The position numbers and the translations under genes were made by a program. A stretch of 64,000 bases of DNA from an uncultured bacterium (GTDB taxonomy: Bacteria > Bacillota_I > Bacilli_A > RFN20 > CAG-826), in contig CASFQA010000001.1 in NCBI GenBank assembly GCA_949296775.1, positions 62,001-126,000 of the forward strand. The letters run 5' to 3'. Every line of letters starts with the position of its first letter. The first letter of the stretch is position 1. Positions 28,262 to 39,330 of the stretch are shown here, piece by piece. The notes beneath the pieces are model-generated. The model was not told the origin of the DNA and searched no databases. It saw nothing but the letters and a program-made list of their open reading frames with translations.

Positions 28262-28338
28262 GCGCCGGTAGCGCAACTGGATAGAGCACCAGACTTCGAA
28301 TCTGGGGGTTACGGGTTCGAGTCCTGTCCGGCGCGCCA
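28262..28338 (+). tRNA. tRNA-Arg (TCG)
   Basis: 77-nt cloverleaf. Acceptor GCGCCGG/CCGGCGC, anticodon loop CTTCGAA, T-arm GGGTTCGAGTCC, discriminator G and encoded CCA. The accessory region begins right after it. Confidence 0.97.
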
Positions 28339-28390
28339 TCTTATAACTAACATTTTGATACAAAGTAAGGCTATCAAAGTGAACGATATT

Positions 28391-28420
28391 TGCTCGAGAA
28401 ATCGGGCATTTTTTGTTTTT
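28391..28420 (+). terminator. Terminator downstream of tRNA-Arg(TCG)
   Basis: TGCTCGA/TCGGGCA around GAAA, followed by TTTTTTGTTTTTT. Confidence 0.75.
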
Positions 28421-28478
28421 TGCGTTTTGCTAGTTGATGAAAATCGATTCGAACTGATGGATTTTTAAAATTTGTTTC

Positions 28479-28518
28479 TACTAAAAAAACGATACCCTAC
28501 TAGAGAAATGATACCCCC
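28479..28518. repeat. Left inverted repeat of an AT-rich accessory block
   Basis: Two units, ACGATACCCTACTAG and AATGATACCCCC. They are the reverse complement of the unit array at 33027-33077, so the two arrays face each other about 4.6 kb apart like ends of a mobile element. Confidence 0.7.
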
Positions 28519-28760
28519 ATCAAAATCTCAACATTGTCACGGTTTTTCTCCTTCCTTTTCCCGAAGTTGTCCCAAGTGTTGATTTTTCTTTAATTATTAT
28601 GCTTATTTATTCCTTAAAAATCGCTGGCATTTACACAATAAAGATGTGGTGGCTGAAGTGATGAAAATGATGAAAAGACAAAATAGATAACTATAAACAA
28701 AGTCAGGTTATATCTTCGTCTAATTTGACAAAATGATAAAATATAAATGAGGTAGATATC

Positions 28761-30689
28761 TTGTTACACGTTAAACACTATCCAGTTAATGATTTTGCTT
28801 ATTCAGTTATGCTCCAAGAAAGCATGAATGTTTTGGCTAACAATATTCTTAACTTTGATAATCCGAATGTATTTGAAATAATTCAGATATTTAATATTAG
28901 CTTGTTTTTTAAAGACGAGCAGTATCTTAATGAACATGGAAAAAACATACTAAACACTAACAAAAAGTACATTCCGATATTAAAGAAGACACAAAGCCTT
29001 TATTTTAAGAACATTAATAGTCGGAAGATTGAGAGTGATTTTGTATTTTTAAAAGACAATTTATCTACAGAGAGTTCGTATACTCCATCCGACTATTTTG
29101 AAACTTTGTCTTCAAATATCGACTTTTCTAAATGCCAAAGAGATATAGGTGAAATCTGCTTCAAATATGTTCCACTATCCTTCATGCTAGAAAACAAAGA
29201 CTTTGTTGATGCCTTTTCTTCACTGATAAAGAGTGAAATGCTGAACAATCCGCAATATTTCAGCCTACTTATTTACCAATATGATGATGCCTCTTTTAGA
29301 AATGATTATTATTTTCCGAAATTTAGTGATGATGAGATTAATATTCTAATTGAAGGATATTTGAAATCTAAAGAGTGTGATTTAAAAGCATTAGAGCTTG
29401 CCGCTCTGCATAAGGATTCATCGGAAACATATCGAATCAAACGTAAAACTCGATTGATGATTTCGCAAAAATTAAAAGAAGAACAAAAGAGATTCTTAAA
29501 CGATGAAAATGTGGTTTCTATGCGCGTACATCATGACTATGGCTTTATTGTTTCTATTGATCAGAAAGATTTGTTTACTGTGAAGACGGAGAATAACCAA
29601 ACTCTAATTTCTTTTTCTAAAACCTTTTTTAATGATGCTGACTCGTGGGAAAAAGTTTTAGATAGATTACTTGATTGTGGTGTTCTAATTAATCAATTTG
29701 GTTCTATAAGCAATCTATATAATCCATACAAAGAAAATACTATTTCCAAACATTTTGAAGCCATTCATGTAACGCAATATGGCTCACAGATATACCAATT
29801 TCAAAACGGACTTAATCAAACTTTTTTTGACTTTCTTTATTCTAATTTCTCACATATAAGCAGAAACTTTGAAGATTTGTCCGTTTGGATTATCACTGAT
29901 AAGATAAATCCGTTATTAGAAGGTTCAAAACTTAATTTGACATTTGCAAAAGACGATAATTTTCAAATTAAATGCGAGCATCTATTTAACCAAATCGCAT
30001 CATTGCTTTTGCAATATAGGATTTTTGTCGAAGAGGGAGAAATTAGCCCAGCTCTTATAGATGAAACAAAAGACTCGTTAAAAATATGTGATCTCCCTTC
30101 ACTGATAAAAGATAAGTACTACGACATTAATCCCAATAGCAACGAAGCTAGAACAATAATATTTTTGTTGTTTAGCAATCAATCCGGTATTAACTATGTA
30201 AGTGAAGATTTAAATGCAGACAATTTCTTTGACCTCATAAGAAGTAAAAAGATAAACATTGACAATTATAAAGGAGAGCTGAAAACAAAGATCGATTATC
30301 TTATTGAGCATTCAATTATAAATATTGAAAATGGAGCACTAATTTTTTCAAGTTTTGAAACGTCCTTCGTTTGGAAATTATTATTTAGCAATCTTTTTAT
30401 TCCATCTTATTTAGTAGACGATAATGTCATTCAGTTGCTGGATAATTATTGCAACAAACAAATATGTAGAAAATATTCAAAACTATTTTCAAATGCTGAA
30501 GCTGATTATTTGGATTACATTATGAATAATTCTAAATTTTCGAATGCCCTTGCTTTACGCAACCATTATGCACATGGACAATCGATTTATTATAATAAAC
30601 AGCAAAATCAGGGCAATTATTTGATTGGATTAAGGACGTTGCTTATTATCCTTGTCAAAATTTATAAAGATTTGGTTGAGCATAAGTGA
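28761..30689 (+). CDS. Large AT-rich protein with C-terminal HEPN RNase motif
   Basis: 642 residues; TTG start after GAGGTAGA. No known domain is recognised in the N-terminal 550 residues. The C-terminus has LRNHYAHG, i.e. R600-x4-H605, the RxxxxH signature of HEPN ribonucleases as found in DUF4209-like and abortive-infection proteins. Composition is far more AT-rich than the core genes. It lies between facing inverted repeats, next to a tRNA. A stress- or phage-triggered RNase is a reasonable hypothesis, but nothing in the sequence proves defence. Confidence 0.75.
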   Translation: MLHVKHYPVNDFAYSVMLQESMNVLANNILNFDNPNVFEIIQIFNISLFFKDEQYLNEHGKNILNTNKKYIPILKKTQSLYFKNINSRKIESDFVFLKDNLSTESSYTPSDYFETLSSNIDFSKCQRDIGEICFKYVPLSFMLENKDFVDAFSSLIKSEMLNNPQYFSLLIYQYDDASFRNDYYFPKFSDDEINILIEGYLKSKECDLKALELAALHKDSSETYRIKRKTRLMISQKLKEEQKRFLNDENVVSMRVHHDYGFIVSIDQKDLFTVKTENNQTLISFSKTFFNDADSWEKVLDRLLDCGVLINQFGSISNLYNPYKENTISKHFEAIHVTQYGSQIYQFQNGLNQTFFDFLYSNFSHISRNFEDLSVWIITDKINPLLEGSKLNLTFAKDDNFQIKCEHLFNQIASLLLQYRIFVEEGEISPALIDETKDSLKICDLPSLIKDKYYDINPNSNEARTIIFLLFSNQSGINYVSEDLNADNFFDLIRSKKINIDNYKGELKTKIDYLIEHSIINIENGALIFSSFETSFVWKLLFSNLFIPSYLVDDNVIQLLDNYCNKQICRKYSKLFSNAEADYLDYIMNNSKFSNALALRNHYAHGQSIYYNKQQNQGNYLIGLRTLLIILVKIYKDLVEHK

Positions 30690-30872
30690 AATATTATTGG
30701 GTTTTGATTTTCTTTGTAATACTTGTTCAAAAAATAGAGGTAGCGAAGGCCTCAAAATTTTTAGAAATTTATCAATTTTGCTAATTTAATATCGATAAGA
30801 AGTGTTTAAACTCTTAAAGTGCTAACATACGTTGTTTAATCATCTTATACATAATATTTGATGCAAAACAAC
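30690..30872. other. AT-rich spacer between the HEPN gene and the IS element
   Basis: No gene or clear signal seen. Confidence 0.3.
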
Positions 30873-32250
30873 GGGGACCACGGATAAATGTTGTGTAAGG
30901 GAAAAGCCCGGTCTCATCCCACCCCTAGGGGTGGCGGCCCGGGCTTGAAACCTAAGATGTAGCCTTCTATCCTTGCCGTTGCACCAAAAAGGAGAAAGCT
31001 ACATGAGTGATTCTAATGCAAAAACGCCGGGCCGGGAAGCCCTTTCGCCTGCCATCGAGCCGATGAGGAAAGCCACCGAGCAGGCGGTCAACGAGGCCAT
31101 GGAGGACCAGTTCCCGTCCTTTCCGGAGGACCGCGTTTCCGGCTCGGGGTCGCCGAGGAACGGCCGCTACGAGAGGAAGGCCCTCGCCACGGTCGGCGAG
31201 ATCGACGTCCGCGTGCCAAGGGATGGGCTGGGCTATTCGAGGAGAGGGCCATAGGCAGGTGCAGGAGGAGGGCCGACGGCCTGGACGCCGAGATCGGGGC
31301 CCTCTACGCCCAGGGGACGTCGTCCTCGGACATAAGCCAGTGCCTTTCCGCGGAATCGGGCGTCGAGGCGTTGGAGAAGCCCGTCCTCGCGATCGCGAAG
31401 GGAAGCTACGGCGAGGCCGAGGGGTTCAATTCCGGGAAACCGCCGAAATGCGCCTTCGTCTGCCTGGACGGGACGCGGCTCCCAGTGAGGGGGAGGCACG
31501 GCGACGGGCCCGACCGTTGCGAAAAGGAATGCGTCATGGCCGCCTTGGGCATCACCGAATCCGGCCGAAAGGAGGCCCTCGGCTTCCGGATAGGGCCGAG
31601 CGAGTCGGCGGAGGGGCGGGGAAAATGCCTTGAAAGCCCCAAGGAGAGGGGGATCGGCGAGCCCATGATGTCCATCGCGGACGGGCTGCAGGGGATGCCA
31701 GAGGCCATAAGGCGGGCATTCCCCGGACCCTCCCGCCAAAGGCGCCCGGTCCACGTCGGGAGGAACGTGCCCTCCGGGGCGAGGGGGAAGGGCAGGCAGG
31801 CCGTATCGGACGATTTCAAATCGGTCTATCCGGCCGGATCGGAGGCGGAGGCGAAGGCCCGGCTGGGCCCATTCGTGGCGAAGCGGCCGCAAGCCCACCC
31901 ATCGTTCGGGAAGTACCTGGCCGAGCCGGGGCCGTTCCCGTTCTGCCGCTTCCCCAAGGCGGCCTGGGGGCCCCTTTGCACCTCAAACGCGGTTGAGGCC
32001 TTCCGCGCCTGCCTCAAAAGGAAGCTGAGGGCCAGGCTGGCCCTCCATTCCCTCAAGAACGGGCGCTGCCTCATAGCCGTCGAGGCAGAGAGATACGACA
32101 GATCCGGCAGGAACAGGAGGCTGACGGGCTTCGATGAGCTGACGGCCGACGAAGTGAAAACCCTTGGAATGGAGAGGCAGAAATAGTTTAATGTCAGAGC
32201 AAGAGGAAGGCGTCGAAGGTCTTATCACACAAAATTCGGCGGTGGTCTCG
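30873..32250 (+). mobile_element. IS256-family-like insertion sequence, degenerate
   Basis: Imperfect terminal inverted repeats: a left end GACCACGGATAAATGTTGTG starting near 30876, and a right end whose complement begins GACCACCGCCGAATTTTGTG (near 32247). The TTGTGT core is typical of IS256 ends. Inside is one GC-rich transposase reading with a frameshift. The element splits an AlbA_2-type ATP-binding gene whose 3' part follows at 32251. Confidence 0.75.
31003..32186 (+). pseudogene. IS256-like (Mutator-type) transposase, frameshifted
   Basis: The first frame (from ATG 31003 after AAAGGAGAAAG) encodes NGRYERKALATVGEIDVRVPRDG, the start of an IS256 transposase. It stops near 31254. The sequence continues in another frame with LDAEIGALYAQGTSSSDIS, then FVCLDGTRLPVRG, IADGLQGMPEAIRRAFPG and TSNAVEAFRACLKRKLRA. 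These carry the catalytic-type Asp, Asp and Glu positions. A single frameshift around 31245-31255 plus shortened spacing makes it inactive unless rescued by frameshifting. Confidence 0.85.
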
Positions 32251-32688
32251 CTCAAACAATCGAAGGCTTTTATTTAGGAGAATCAGTACCAGTAAACGAG
32301 AAACTCTCTGAGATTTTTGCTCAGCTAAGAATAAGCGATAAATCTGGTAGAGGCGTACCGAAAATTGTTGAAAGTTATACTAGAAATGCCTTCCAATTCA
32401 GAGACAATTCAATTGTGATAAAAATCCCTTTTAATTCAATTAGAAAAGTTGGTAACAAAGTTGGTAATAATGTTGGTGATAAAACCATTACTACAAGAAA
32501 ACATGGCTTAAATTCAACTAGAGAAAGAATACTTTCAGAAATGAGACATAATCCAAATATTACTAAAGCCGAACTAGTCGTTTTAATCGGATACGGCAAT
32601 CGATAATAATATAAGGTATTTAAGAAATAACGGATTTATAAAACGTATCGGCGAAAACAAAAACGGATATTGGGAGGTTGTTAAATGA
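32251..32688 (+). pseudogene. 3' remnant of an AlbA_2/HATPase_c_4 ATP-binding protein, cut by the IS
   Basis: Contains VPVNEKLSEIFAQLRISDKSGRGVPKIVES, a linker with GNKVGNNVGDK repeats and a winged helix (ILSEMRHNPNITKAELV). After a small frameshift near 32600 the final IRYLRNNGFIKRIGENKNGYWEVV follows. The N-terminal part is absent on the left side of the IS. It overlaps the next remnant by 4 bp. Confidence 0.75.
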
Positions 32689-32998
32689 ATATAGATAAAA
32701 GGAGTGGATATTGTGGCATCGATTGTAGCAAATGTGAGCCTATATCGTCGCAATCACTAATGACAATGAATTAAAGGAAAAAACGGCAAGACTTTGCTCT
32801 AAACTAAATAATGCAAAAATATTGCCCGAGAATATTAATTGCAATGGGTGGAATCTGAAGGAATTAAAACAATCTTTTGTACAAATTTATGTTTTTTTAG
32901 ATAATGTGCGATAGAGAATAATGTTGATAATTGCAAGCAATGCGCGAAATTCAACACATGTGCCGATATTCAAAAACTCGTGAAAATAAAAAATCTAT
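32685..32998 (+). pseudogene. DUF3795 protein, frameshifted
   Basis: ATG 32685 starts MNIDKRSGYCGIDCSKCE, the DUF3795 signature. The reading then breaks. Pieces corresponding to ITNDNELKEKTARL, LPENINCNG and NCKQCAKFNTCADIQ are found in other frames up to about 32998. At least two frameshifts; clearly dead. Confidence 0.75.
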
Positions 32999-33026
32999 AA
33001 TTTCAATCATATTTTGCCTTTTTTAA

Positions 33027-33077
33027 AGGTATCGTTTTTCTAGTAAGGGTATCATTTCGCTAGTAGGGGTATCGTTT
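33027..33077. repeat. Right inverted repeat of the AT-rich accessory block
   Basis: About 2.5 units of (G)GGTATC(G/A)TTTyk-CTAGTA(r), in opposite orientation to 28479-28518. Confidence 0.7.
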
Positions 33078-33099
33078 TGTATTAAAGCGATAGCATAAA

Positions 33100-33429
33100 G
33101 ATATTTTCCGACAAACACCTATAATGCGCGGGCGTTAAAGGGTTAAGTCGGTTTTTAGGGCCGCGTCCAGACTCGATGAGGCCCATCCGGCTAGGCCCTT
33201 TGGCTTCATCGGATTGGGTTCGTCGCCGGCTTCGCCTTCTTCCGAGGCCTCGGAGAGCGTCTTGCGCTCGGGGTCGGCGATGGCGGAGATGCCCTCTTTG
33301 GTGAGCCTTCGGCATTTGTCCGTTTGATCTCTCCTTGCCGGGGACGGGCGGGGCGTCACTATTTTAACCCGAGGCAGGACATGACTTCTAAACGGAACCC
33401 AAAACAGGACATGACGTTTTTAATCAAGC
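33100..33429. repeat. Three-copy dispersed repeat, copy 1
   Basis: Begins TTTTCCGACAAACACCTATA, contains the GC-rich segment GCCTCGGAGAGCGTCTTGCG and ends in two CAGGACATGAC units and AATCAAGC. Copies at 34190-34413 and 35884-36184 are in the same orientation. It probably derives from an IS end or a non-autonomous element; no protein function recognised. Confidence 0.8.
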
Positions 33430-33544: not shown

Positions 33545-33802
33545 ATGGCTAACATCAATGTCACGATCCGCATGGATGAGCAGCTTAAAGCCCAGGCTGA
33601 TGAATTGTTTAGCGATCTCGGGCTTTCCTTAAGTTCTGCCATTACCATGTTTGCCAAACAAGCCGTTCGGGAACAACGCATTCCCTTTGAGGTCAAGCGT
33701 TCAGGAACTACGATTCAAGTAGCAACAGATAGTTCCGTAGAAACACTTTCCAAACAGCTCATTGAAAAAAACCGGATGGCTTATGAGGAGTTGGCGAAGT
33801 GA
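33545..33802 (+). CDS. RelB/DinJ family antitoxin
   Basis: 85-residue ribbon-helix-helix antitoxin. It starts MANINVTIRMDEQLKAQAD and continues LFSDLGLSLSSAITMFAKQAV, the RelB/DinJ DNA-binding motif. A C-terminal tail should wrap the toxin. The start follows AGGAGG. The stop overlaps the GTG start of the Doc-like gene by 4 bp, so the pair was a translationally coupled toxin-antitoxin operon. The antitoxin is intact while the toxin is not. Confidence 0.9.
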   Translation: MANINVTIRMDEQLKAQADELFSDLGLSLSSAITMFAKQAVREQRIPFEVKRSGTTIQVATDSSVETLSKQLIEKNRMAYEELAK

Positions 33803-34189: not shown

Positions 34190-34413
34190 CTTCCCGTACC
34201 GAACGACGGGGGCTTCGCCTTCTTCCGGAGGCCTCGGAGAGCGTCTTGCGCTCGGGGTCGGCGATGGCGGAGATGCCCCCTTTAGCGAGTCTTCTCTATT
34301 TGTCCGTTTGATCTCTCCTTGCCGGGGGCGGGAGGGACATCACTATTTTAACCGGAGACAGGACATGACTTCTAAACGAAACCAAAAACAGGACATGACG
34401 TTTTTAATCAAGC
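34190..34413. repeat. Three-copy dispersed repeat, copy 2
   Basis: Shares the GC-rich segment and the paired CAGGACATGAC units with copies 1 and 3 but lacks the ACAAACACCTATAATGCGC end. Confidence 0.8.
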
Positions 34414-35883: not shown

Positions 35884-36184
35884 CACATTTTCTGACAAAC
35901 ACCTATAATGCGCTGGCGCCTTTTCGCCCAGGAACGCCTTGTCGGTTGCCCGTTGGCCTTCTTCCCGCACCGAACGACGGGGGCTTCGCCTTCTTCCGGA
36001 GGCCTCGGAGAGCGTCTTGCGCTCGGGGTCGGCGATGGCGGAGATGCCCCCTTTGCTGAGCCTTCGGCATTTGTCCGTTTGATCTCTCCTTGCCGGGGGC
36101 GGGAGGGACGTTATTATTTCAACCGGAGGCAGGGCAAGATTCTAAACGAAACCCAAAGCAGGACATGTCGTTTTTGTTCAAGCC
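35884..36184. repeat. Three-copy dispersed repeat, copy 3
   Basis: Has the complete form with ACAAACACCTATAATGCGC at one end and the CAGGACATG unit at the other. Confidence 0.8.
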
Positions 36185-36211
36185 GCCAAGGAGATCGTTG
36201 ACCTAGTCGAT

Positions 36212-36286: not shown

Positions 36287-36817
36287 ATGCTTGATATCGG
36301 CGGCGAAATCACGATCGACGGAATCCAATACAAGGCCGTAAAGCTACTCGGCCGTGGCAAAGGTGGCTATTCCTTTTTGGCGACGGCTAACGGCAAGCAA
36401 TGCGTCTTAAAGCAGATTCATCATGAGCCCTGTTCTTATTATAGCTTCGGCAATAAGATCGAAGCCGAGCTTCATGACTACGGCCGCCTATCGCAGACCG
36501 GAATCAGGATTCCTAAGATGATCGCGGTCGACAAGGACAAAGAAGTCATCGTCAAGGAGTATGTCGATGGCCCGGTCCTTTCCGATTTGATCAAATCCCA
36601 TCAAGAGGTGGCGGCTTATATCGAACAGATGAGATCGATGCTCCCCGCCATCTACGGCGCGGGGCTGAACATCGATTATTATCCCACGAACTTCATCATC
36701 GGTAGGCAAGATGGGTTGCTTTATTATATCGACTATGAATGCAACCTTTACGATCCGAAATGGGATTTCGAGCATTGGGGCATTAAGTATTGGAACGGCC
36801 AAGAGCCAATAAATTAG
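36287..36817 (+). CDS. Small protein-kinase-like protein
   Basis: 176-residue kinase-fold protein with the core motifs in a minimal scaffold. The Gly-rich loop is LGRGKGGYSF (21-30), the Lys is Lys42 (CVLKQ), and a helix C acid is in NKIEAEL. The catalytic-loop-like segment is NIDYYPTN (Asp130, Asn135) and the metal Asp is in YIDYE (Asp149). It is smaller than classic Ser/Thr kinases and resembles RIO/Bud32 or aminoglycoside-kinase-like folds. The start follows AAGGGAG. Substrate unknown. It has a near-consensus promoter of its own. Confidence 0.8.
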   Translation: MLDIGGEITIDGIQYKAVKLLGRGKGGYSFLATANGKQCVLKQIHHEPCSYYSFGNKIEAELHDYGRLSQTGIRIPKMIAVDKDKEVIVKEYVDGPVLSDLIKSHQEVAAYIEQMRSMLPAIYGAGLNIDYYPTNFIIGRQDGLLYYIDYECNLYDPKWDFEHWGIKYWNGQEPIN

Positions 36818-37680: not shown

Positions 37681-38622
37681 TTATAGCCCTAGGGAATCCA
37701 GCTTGCTTCCGATTTGCTCCATTGCCTCTAACACTTCATTAAAGGATGGGAACTTATCGAAGAAGGACATGCTATGCATAATCGACTCATAGCCTTTCTT
37801 GACTTCGGGATTGAGTTTGGTTTTCCAATTGGAGTAGGCATAGGGCCCAGTGGGATCATAGCCTTGCTCTCCCCATTCGGGATGGCGTTTAACATAATAA
37901 GCGTCCGATTCCTTGCTTAGGCTAATTAGTTGCTTTAGTTCATCGGGATCGGCGAGGAGGTTTTTGACGTCTGGGTGATTCATCATCAAGGTGACGTCAT
38001 TAAGATGACGGGAATTGGTCGCGAGTTTGCCGATATAGGCATAACGCTTGATGGCCAACAACTTATCGACGAAGGTCCGTTTGATGGAGGTGACGTTGAT
38101 CGCCACCTCCTTTAAGCCGTAGCGTTCGATCTCCTCTTTTAGCCTCCGTTCCTCCATGAAAACCTGGATATAGGATTTGATGGGGCGCGGGGAGTAGGGG
38201 ATGGAGTTGGAGAAGGATCCGATATCGAGTTTGATCGGCTCGATGCCCTCGATTAGGATGGTGCTGCTTTTATGGCGGGGATAACGTTTGTGGATGTCTT
38301 TTTGAAAGGTGGTTCCCTCGATGTCTGACAATATCGATTCGATCTCCTTGATGTTCCGGCTGCAATTGCCATTGGAAAGATTCGCCCCGAGGTAATTGAG
38401 GTCGACGTCCTCGGAGAAGCGGTCGATGGACCCAGGGTAGCCTTTGCTTAAGGAGGTGCCACCTTTGAAGACGCAGTCATTGGCAAAGGGGGAGGCGGCG
38501 AGGTTGGATAGCATCTTGACGATGTAGTAATCGCGTTTTATTTGGTCGGCATCGATGCCGATGAAGGCCGAGGTTTCGCGGGCGTAACGTTCAAAAGACG
38601 ACGGGGTTAGATGCAGATTCAT
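37681..38622 (-). CDS. abiEii: AbiEii-type nucleotidyltransferase toxin
   Basis: 313-residue protein of the AbiEii/AbiGii family. The nucleotidyltransferase core reads FKGGTSLSKGYPGSIDRFSEDVDL (GGTSLSK at 54-60, Asp72 and Asp74). The downstream SIKRTFVDKLLAIKR motif is typical. AbiEii toxins add nucleotides to tRNA 3' ends and are bacteriostatic. ATG 38622 is chosen because GGAGG lies 6 nt upstream; the frame is open 27 bp further. It overlaps the antitoxin gene by 32 bp. The motifs look intact. Confidence 0.9.
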   Translation of the reverse strand: MNLHLTPSSFERYARETSAFIGIDADQIKRDYYIVKMLSNLAASPFANDCVFKGGTSLSKGYPGSIDRFSEDVDLNYLGANLSNGNCSRNIKEIESILSDIEGTTFQKDIHKRYPRHKSSTILIEGIEPIKLDIGSFSNSIPYSPRPIKSYIQVFMEERRLKEEIERYGLKEVAINVTSIKRTFVDKLLAIKRYAYIGKLATNSRHLNDVTLMMNHPDVKNLLADPDELKQLISLSKESDAYYVKRHPEWGEQGYDPTGPYAYSNWKTKLNPEVKKGYESIMHSMSFFDKFPSFNEVLEAMEQIGSKLDSLGL

Positions 38623-39304
38623 AAATGTCCTCCATTTTCGGTATGTCATAAATAGATAATTCGCTGAGGTACTCGGTGAGTTCGTTTTTGATGTTATAGA
38701 AGTTCAGCACGTTGCGTAGGAAGGCGATGGTGCTTTTCTTGTACCGTCTTTTCTTCAATAGCCTGCCCAAGGCCTTTTCGTCGAAGGATGAGGCGACCGT
38801 TTTGGTGAATTCCATGAAAGCCCCCTCATCAAGGTCAGGGATTTCTTTGTAATGTTCCAAGACCTCAAGAGAAGAGAGGATATCGACGGTCTGCTTGTCG
38901 AATTTGACGTTGAGCCGATAAGCGGTGCACTTGCCGATTTGCTTTCTATCGCCCTCGATTTGAGAGGTCAGGTATTCACGCTGAAAGGGGACTTGGGTCG
39001 TGAGGCCTAGCTTATTGTAGAGGGCATAGCCAACCGGCATCCCCGATTCGTCATCGGTCAAGGATTTCTCGATGCCGCTAAGTTTGATGGGGAAGGACCG
39101 GCCCTCAAAGGTGTAGGGGAAGTAGTAAACGCCCCTGGCGGCTTTGGATAAGGTCCCATCCGCAACCAATCGTTCCAAGCACTTGTAATAAGTCAGCTCA
39201 TTGACTCGTCCCTCTAACCGTTTACGGTATAAAGAGGAGGCGAAGATCAATTCCTCAACCCGGAATTTCTTCAACTCGTTTTTGATAATCTGCATTTGGC
39301 TCAT
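38591..39304 (-). CDS. abiEi: AbiEi-type antitoxin/autorepressor
   Basis: 237-residue antitoxin with an N-terminal winged helix (FRVEELIFASSLYRKR, LTYYKCLERLVADGTLSKAARGVYYFP), followed by the AbiEi-like C-terminal domain. ATG 39304 is preferred because it follows GGAAGGTG; an in-frame TTG lies two codons upstream. AbiEi proteins neutralise AbiEii and repress their own promoter by binding inverted repeats. A suitable inverted repeat overlaps the -35 box here. Translation is coupled to the toxin. Confidence 0.85.
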   Translation of the reverse strand: MSQMQIIKNELKKFRVEELIFASSLYRKRLEGRVNELTYYKCLERLVADGTLSKAARGVYYFPYTFEGRSFPIKLSGIEKSLTDDESGMPVGYALYNKLGLTTQVPFQREYLTSQIEGDRKQIGKCTAYRLNVKFDKQTVDILSSLEVLEHYKEIPDLDEGAFMEFTKTVASSFDEKALGRLLKKRRYKKSTIAFLRNVLNFYNIKNELTEYLSELSIYDIPKMEDIYESASNPVVF

Positions 39305-39330
39305 TGGCAATCACCTTCCTTGTTACTAAA

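Follow-up and report, generated by a model that had tools for sequence, protein, structure and literature searches.

Recombinase-less gene cassettes behind tRNA and tmRNA genes of gut Bacilli, probably hitching on a phage attachment system

Staphylococcal cassette chromosome (SCC) elements are inserted at the 3' end of a conserved gene by a pair of large serine recombinases (ccrAB/ccrC); they stack in tandem, and some members carry no recombinase genes. More generally, defence genes cluster in tRNA-linked islands, and how single operons without an integrase arrive there is often unclear. For integrons, clusters of attC sites lacking integrases (CALINs) have been described, in which exchangeable gene cassettes form arrays that have no recombinase and are mobilized in trans (PMC11389934). 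Here, we analysed a 64,000-nt stretch of DNA of an uncultured bacterium (GTDB lineage Bacillota_I; Bacilli_A; RFN20; CAG-826; assembly GCA_949296775.1, contig CASFQA010000001.1, positions 62,001-126,000), hereafter called the window. An initial annotation had noted a block at 28479-33077 with facing repeat arrays, behind a tRNA-Arg gene. The full element is wider (28339-33103) and belongs to a family of recombinase-less cassettes of gut Bacilli located behind the CCA of tRNA and tmRNA genes. We propose that these cassettes hitch on a temperate-phage attachment system centred on CA, which we consider probable.

In the window copy, the CCA of tRNA-Arg(tcg) is followed in order by a 26-nt left end (LE), a terminator-like hairpin, an inward-pointing array, the cargo, a second inward-pointing array and a 25-nt right end (RE) (Table 1). 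The arrays do face each other on opposite strands, at 28479-28515 (minus strand, units 28479-28496 and 28498-28515) and 33028-33065 (plus strand, units 33028-33045 and 33048-33065). With at most one mismatch, the unit GGTATCRTTTNNCTAGTA occurs eight times in the whole 1.52-Mb genome, at three loci only, and its reversed control does not occur at all. All three loci are directly 3' of a tRNA or tmRNA gene, the other two lying behind the tmRNA gene (L001) and tRNA-Leu(gag) (L002), which excludes single arrays scattered at random. The proposal that the arrays mark the ends of an element behind a tRNA gene is thus strongly supported, and it holds far beyond this one locus.

Comparison of the three loci of this genome with 20 regions of its relatives yielded a common plan, namely a tRNA gene ending in CCA, LE (TCTTATAACTAACATTTTGATACAAA) starting on the next base, a hairpin and T-run ~55 nt into the element, a left array, the cargo, a right array and RE (GTATYAAAGCGATAGCACAAAGACA). 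Left arrays usually consist of 2-4 units with a 19-bp period, right arrays have a 20-bp period, and both point inward. Over 25 left ends, 99.3% of the cells of the hairpin stem are paired, and two of its six pairs have changed on both sides; these paired changes preserve the hairpin, which fits a terminator brought for the tRNA gene. In tandem arrays, successive cassettes adjoin without a gap, RE to LE. A variant LE (CATCTAATAACTAACG...) abuts tRNA CCA in three further loci (L185-L187). An Rfam search yielded tRNA only. TCTTGAAAAAGTCGACATTTCGTATCAA represents a third type of left end, found after tRNA CCA or RE (L074:353-380, L013:1654-1681, L193 and L204:10434-10461), whose half-site does not fit the GATAC rule described below. 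In the left leader (window 28446-28484; alignment columns 113-187), a T-loop-like sequence similar to GGTTCGAAC is flanked by the arms of a conserved inverted repeat, CTAGTAGA...TCTACTAG. ARAGORN also called a tmRNA overlapping tRNA-Ser/tRNA-Ile and an LE (L191:10486-10916), probably falsely.

The collected loci comprise 75 LE sites, 74 of which have 30 nt of upstream sequence. Among these 74, LE abuts the CCA of a tRNA or tmRNA gene in 42 cases and the RE of another cassette in 20; the remaining 12 sites have other neighbours, two of them truncated tRNA 3' ends (L055, L076). The dinucleotide CA directly precedes LE at 42/42 tRNA/tmRNA sites, 20/20 RE sites and 10/12 other sites, and the two exceptions (L005:661 and L006:8586) resemble REs aligned two bases off. 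At -22 to -19 from the junction, TCRA is found in all 42 tRNA/tmRNA genes, in 10 of the 20 REs (with TTRA in nine more) and at 6 of the 12 other sites. The reversed LE carries GTATC at the matching distance, so that RE-CA-LE forms a dyad centred on CA. This dyad is respected at 15 of 23 positions, a score reached by 6 of 20,000 shuffles. From the TCRA/GTATC spacing, both RE and LE are similar to that half of a tRNA gene which comprises T-loop and CCA, and we infer that this half may be the half-site that is recognised.

The exact LE 26-mer was found in 55 stretches of genome contigs, mostly in records of uncultured bacterium, Bacilli or Acholeplasmatales. Among 224 genomes of the window's family, 45, in 8 of 35 genera, harbour LE with at most three mismatches and 33 harbour two-unit arrays, and the reversed LE pattern has no match. 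The cassettes all lie in one orientation relative to the gene ahead of them, and sites occupied in one genome may be free in another. In the sister species G031, the tmRNA gene has no cassette, its CCA continuing into a different sequence with its own terminator-like repeat, and G025 has no LE on its tmRNA contig. The tRNA-Arg(tcg) site is empty in G025, and in G031 nothing but an AlbA tail and a decayed array is left there.

The cargo is exchangeable and rich in defence genes. Our Pfam tally covers 89 of the 147 cassette open reading frames (ORFs) of at least 100 aa (42 + 47) and the first 25 of 43 and 25 of 65 families; open-ended loci in it may include host genes. DNA modification and restriction are represented by C5-methyltransferases and by MutH-like, Tsp45I-type, type IIG and type III-like restriction proteins. 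Further cargo includes DUF1016/YhcG, RhuM, SLFN_AlbA_2 and the PDC-S02, PDC-S05, PDC-S23 and PDC-S57 candidates, and GNATs, MerR, ADP-ribosylglycohydrolases and transporters were also found.

We found no recognisable intact recombinase gene in the cassettes. Host XerC/XerD or an integron-type tyrosine recombinase might move them, as two proteins of XerC/XerD size are the sole PF00589 matches in 9 of 20 LE-bearing genomes, and proteins of that size are the sole ones in G109, G093, G105 and G100. Yet the RE-LE junction agrees poorly with a dif-like site, detected in three of eight genomes searched, all of genus g19, and the dyad is centred on 2 bp. A 267-aa tyrosine recombinase at L010:74-877 was rejected, its relatives in L143, L164 and L165 being away from any LE or RE. 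We consider this explanation very unlikely. Other tyrosine recombinase candidates of ~330 aa were set aside, being located in apparent prophages or beside apparent restriction-modification genes. In L136, L140 and L164, tyrosine recombinases of 278-337 aa lie beside apparent type I restriction-modification genes and are perhaps specificity-gene switching enzymes.

Another possibility is a DDE transposon that is non-autonomous and, in the manner of Tn7 or IS21, combines several transposase-binding sites near its termini with a factor targeting tRNA genes. The repeat arrays, subterminal and pointing inward, and the imperfect inverted repeats at the termini would suit it, and IS21-type genes are indeed present near arrays in L010 and L024. 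These IS21 copies, however, appear to lie inside cassettes, and we rejected them as autonomous elements. The target duplication could be CA at most. Transposases with an rve domain occur in 11 of 17 genomes and are missing from the LE-bearing G000, G105, G109, G038 and G210, so they were rejected as a mover common to all carriers. We give this scenario hardly any credence.

A more promising link was found in L204 (G109) and L206 (G099), where tandem large serine recombinases are followed by an array and an RE within 3.8 kb and 0.7 kb, respectively. All four recombinases harbour Resolvase, Recombinase and Zn_ribbon domains; for both members of the pair the nearest NCBIfam models are CcrB/CcrC/CcrA and XisF, with scores far below the cut-offs. 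The terminal 122 bp of the two loci, which end at RE, are 90% identical, and the genes upstream of the recombinases look by eye like phage structural and lysis genes. Judging from their sequences, L204 and L206 are prophage ends with a right array and RE of the cassette type.

In 72 phage records, we found a relative that covers 80% or more of the second recombinase. The closest, PV036447.1 (Anaeroplasmataceae phage NatCom_34063, Ca. Heliusvirales, 63,197 bp), starts with CACCA followed by the LE-like TTAGAGTACATTAGTCTTGATAC, and ends with a serine recombinase pair, an array of TAGGGGTGTCG repeats and the RE-like GTATTAAAATAGTTGTGTAAATACA; words of 31 bp and 17 bp are inverted between its two ends. 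Phage and cassettes agree in the start right after CCA, in GATAC at +19 to +23 and in the inward arrays, and their right ends are both 25 nt long, beginning with GTATTAAA and ending with CA. This positional agreement is the strongest sign that LE, array and RE constitute a phage attachment system. In viral contigs, the exact LE 26-mer, an LE 19-mer and the array pattern gave no match, and three matches to an RE 17-mer were discarded as chance. The viral contigs L224 and L225, which encode a related recombinase, have no LE or RE, and the RE-LE junction has no blastn match in phages or plasmids.

The shared array and RE of prophage right ends could also mean that the cassettes are prophages reduced by internal deletions, which have kept only the attachment ends and nearby accessory genes and do not move as cassettes. 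C-terminal serine recombinase fragments that persist in L018 and L187 are in line with such remnants, as is the window copy, itself a deletion fusion (see below). Nevertheless, intact one-operon cassettes with both ends recur, and tandem joins are precise. The same 471+107-aa cargo is found behind tRNA-Arg(ccg) in L020 and behind tRNA-Thr(cgt) in L022, in different genomes, and phage structural proteins are absent from the first 25 of the 43 families of complete cassettes. We thus regard prophage remnants as an unlikely explanation.

In the hitching scenario that we favour, a visiting or resident phage would supply the large serine recombinase pair as a helper in trans. The helper would cut a circular cassette at the CA in the middle of a 48-bp dyad (RE half, CA, LE half), and the circle would join a target half-site TCRA-N16-CA, a spacing that matches the T-loop and CCA of tRNA genes. 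The product would read tRNA-CCA, LE...RE and old flank, always in one orientation. The tRNA sequence would stay whole and gain a terminator, and the site would remain usable, such that later cassettes would stack beside the tRNA gene. The arrays may serve as accessory or regulatory sites, which are unusual for serine integrases. Several points weigh against this scenario. The helper gene is in no cassette, and most carrier genomes lack it: of 26 genomes of genus g19, 12 encode serine recombinases (PF00239), and many LE-bearing ones encode none; like rve transposases, these recombinases are thus not universal. An array with RE was present at only 2 of the 20 loci fetched around serine recombinases, and in these genomes both ends were never assembled on a single prophage. 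Between phage and cassettes, only 16 of 25 RE positions and 12 of 23 LE positions agree, and the phage ends by themselves form a weak dyad (11/23) that is not significant, with 1120 of 20,000 shuffles reaching its score. A second phage, PV036431.1, has no such ends at its record limits, and neither a circular form nor transfer was observed.

The initial annotation had singled out a large HEPN-motif protein, whose long N-terminal region might act as a sensor for an RNase effector. This 642-aa protein, with a TTG start codon and RNHYAH close to its C-terminus, matches the PADLOC candidate family PDC-S56 over its full length (residues 3-639 to positions 7-639 of the 649-position profile; E 1.2e-86). 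Residues R600, N601, Y603 and H605 (RNxYxH) are invariant in 6/6 relatives and conform to the pattern R-x4-6-H. A 61% identical relative in genus g10 sits between left and right arrays (L168), indicating that PDC-S56 is genuine cassette cargo; no LE or RE was recognisable in L168. The other relatives, with 28-31% identity, are found outside LE/RE cassettes in four other genomes, amounting to 6 of 279 genomes in all. By eye, their neighbours include an HsdR-like gene (L169) and SMC and JetD-like genes (L171). AlphaFold gave a mean predicted local distance difference test score (pLDDT) of 73.9 for the full model and 83 for a C-terminal model, with values below 50 for the motif stretch in both. 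Foldseek/VIA-align listed only helical-repeat (N-terminal) and winged-helix (C-terminal) matches and no HEPN chain, with best Z scores of 5.6 and 6.6, values that common arrangements also reach. A whole-model fold search returned weak helical-repeat matches, and PDB searches with the single sequence or a profile gave nothing convincing. The low confidence at the motif and the nature of these matches mean that a HEPN bundle is not demonstrated. The family match and the conserved motif stand, and judged from the latter the protein is likely a HEPN nuclease. A literature search yielded no paper on PDC-S56.

The IS256-like element and broken genes of the block are present as annotated. The transposase is split into two frames (30973-31254 and 31371-32186), the second of which scores 106 bits with the IS256/Mutator family signature PF00872 (cut-off 21), and the transposase region as a whole has a GC content of 0.65, versus 0.30 in the PDC-S56 ORF. 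Further right, one remnant is 87-94% identical to the C-terminus of the L022 SLFN_AlbA_2 protein, and the next consists of pieces 55-59% identical to a DUF3795 protein. The right half of the element shares 90.6% DNA identity over 307 nt with G031 at the same tRNA gene (L087). The PDC-S56 cassette has kept its left end and lost its right end, and the AlbA/DUF3795 remnants lie with RE to the right of the IS256-type insertion. By these similarities, the window copy is a fusion of two cassettes and a degraded family member. An AlbA/DUF3795 cassette would have been there first, in line with the AlbA tail that G031 retains at this tRNA gene; a PDC-S56 cassette would then have inserted on its tRNA-proximal side, followed by the IS256-type insertion and deletions.

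Table 1. Features of the window copy and its attachment gene.
Feature	Position	Strand	Basis
tRNA-Arg(tcg), attachment gene; element begins one base past its CCA	28262-28338	+	ARAGORN, sequence
Left end LE, TCTTATAACTAACATTTTGATACAAA	28339-28364	+	Exact 26-mer in 55 stretches of genome contigs
Hairpin and T-run, terminator-like, putatively supplied by the element to the tRNA ahead of it	28391-28414	+	Stem pairing over 25 left ends
Left array, two units, 19-bp period, inward	28479-28515	-	Repeat positions
Cargo 1, 642-aa candidate defence protein (PDC-S56) with HEPN-type motif RNHYAH	28761-30689	+	PADLOC, relatives
Frame-broken Mutator/IS256-type transposase inserted in the element	30973-32186	+	PF00872
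SLFN_AlbA_2-type remnant, C-terminal part, from a second, older cassette	32250-32685	+	tblastn with L022 protein
DUF3795-type remnant, same older cassette	32691-32985	+	tblastn; PF12675 in set with L020 copy
Right array, two units, 20-bp period, and partial third merging into RE	33028-33078	+	Repeat positions, right-end alignment
Right end RE, GTATTAAAGCGATAGCATAAAGATA; usual form ends with ACA	33079-33103	+	Alignment of 23 right ends

Beyond RE, the window encodes a RelB-domain ORF (33545-33802), a kinase-like ORF (36287-36817) and an AbiEi/AbiEii pair (37681-39310, minus strand; PADLOC E 3e-61 and 2e-58). The kinase-like ORF resembles by eye the cargo of L019, L028 and L077, and a similar gene lies behind the empty tRNA-Arg site of G025 (L088). 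A 186-nt repeat with GGACATGAC-type direct repeats is present in two copies (33244-33429 and 34228-34413; 92% identity), and a similar stretch lies inside the ORF 35908-36201; these repeats are possibly insertion sequence-end debris of another element.

If the proposed scenario is correct, it offers a concrete route for the arrival of single operons at tRNA genes, and would connect the accumulation of anti-phage genes with the machinery by which a phage integrates. It would also yield serine recombinases whose landing site is natural and generic, the half-site being present in nearly every tRNA gene. As search probes, the cassette ends would make cargo such as PDC-S56 easy to find; this candidate family, matched here over its full length, is carried in the window as cassette cargo. 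A search of open-licence PMC papers yielded nothing describing tRNA-anchored cassette arrays. Phage satellites and hitcher elements borrow functions of a helper phage, as the cassettes would, but the latter show no packaging, capsid or replication genes and share only the attachment system. The dif modules of Acinetobacter plasmids are, in the descriptions consulted, also recombinase-less modules flanked by recombination sites, with other sites, another enzyme and, in those descriptions, no tRNA anchoring. With integrons and CALINs, as described in the source cited above, the cassettes share recombinase-less, exchangeable arrays, which here too would be mobilized in trans; they differ in having arrays at both cassette ends, a tRNA gene as the array head and, probably, a serine recombinase, with no dedicated integron integrase among the PF00589 matches of 9 of 20 carriers. 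SCC elements have recombinase pairs of similar sizes, 3'-end insertion, serial tandem stacking and members without recombinase genes. Unlike SCC, however, the cassettes measure 1-9 kb and use many tRNA and tmRNA genes rather than the rlmH 3' end, and the recombinases are on prophages and absent from the cassettes; the best CcrB matches (E 1e-46 to 1e-35) reach 122-160 bits against an NCBIfam equivalog cut-off of 900. The cassettes thus work like SCC and CALINs, departing from SCC in recombinase family and target, and there is a real chance that they constitute a separate class. We tentatively envision cassettes that copy the ends of temperate phages with tandem serine integrases, land on the T-loop/CCA geometry shared by all tRNAs and bring the tRNA gene a terminator, and for which any tRNA gene might be a platform, adding to the Bacilli an integron-like, defence-rich and stackable capture system with a phage-supplied integrase.

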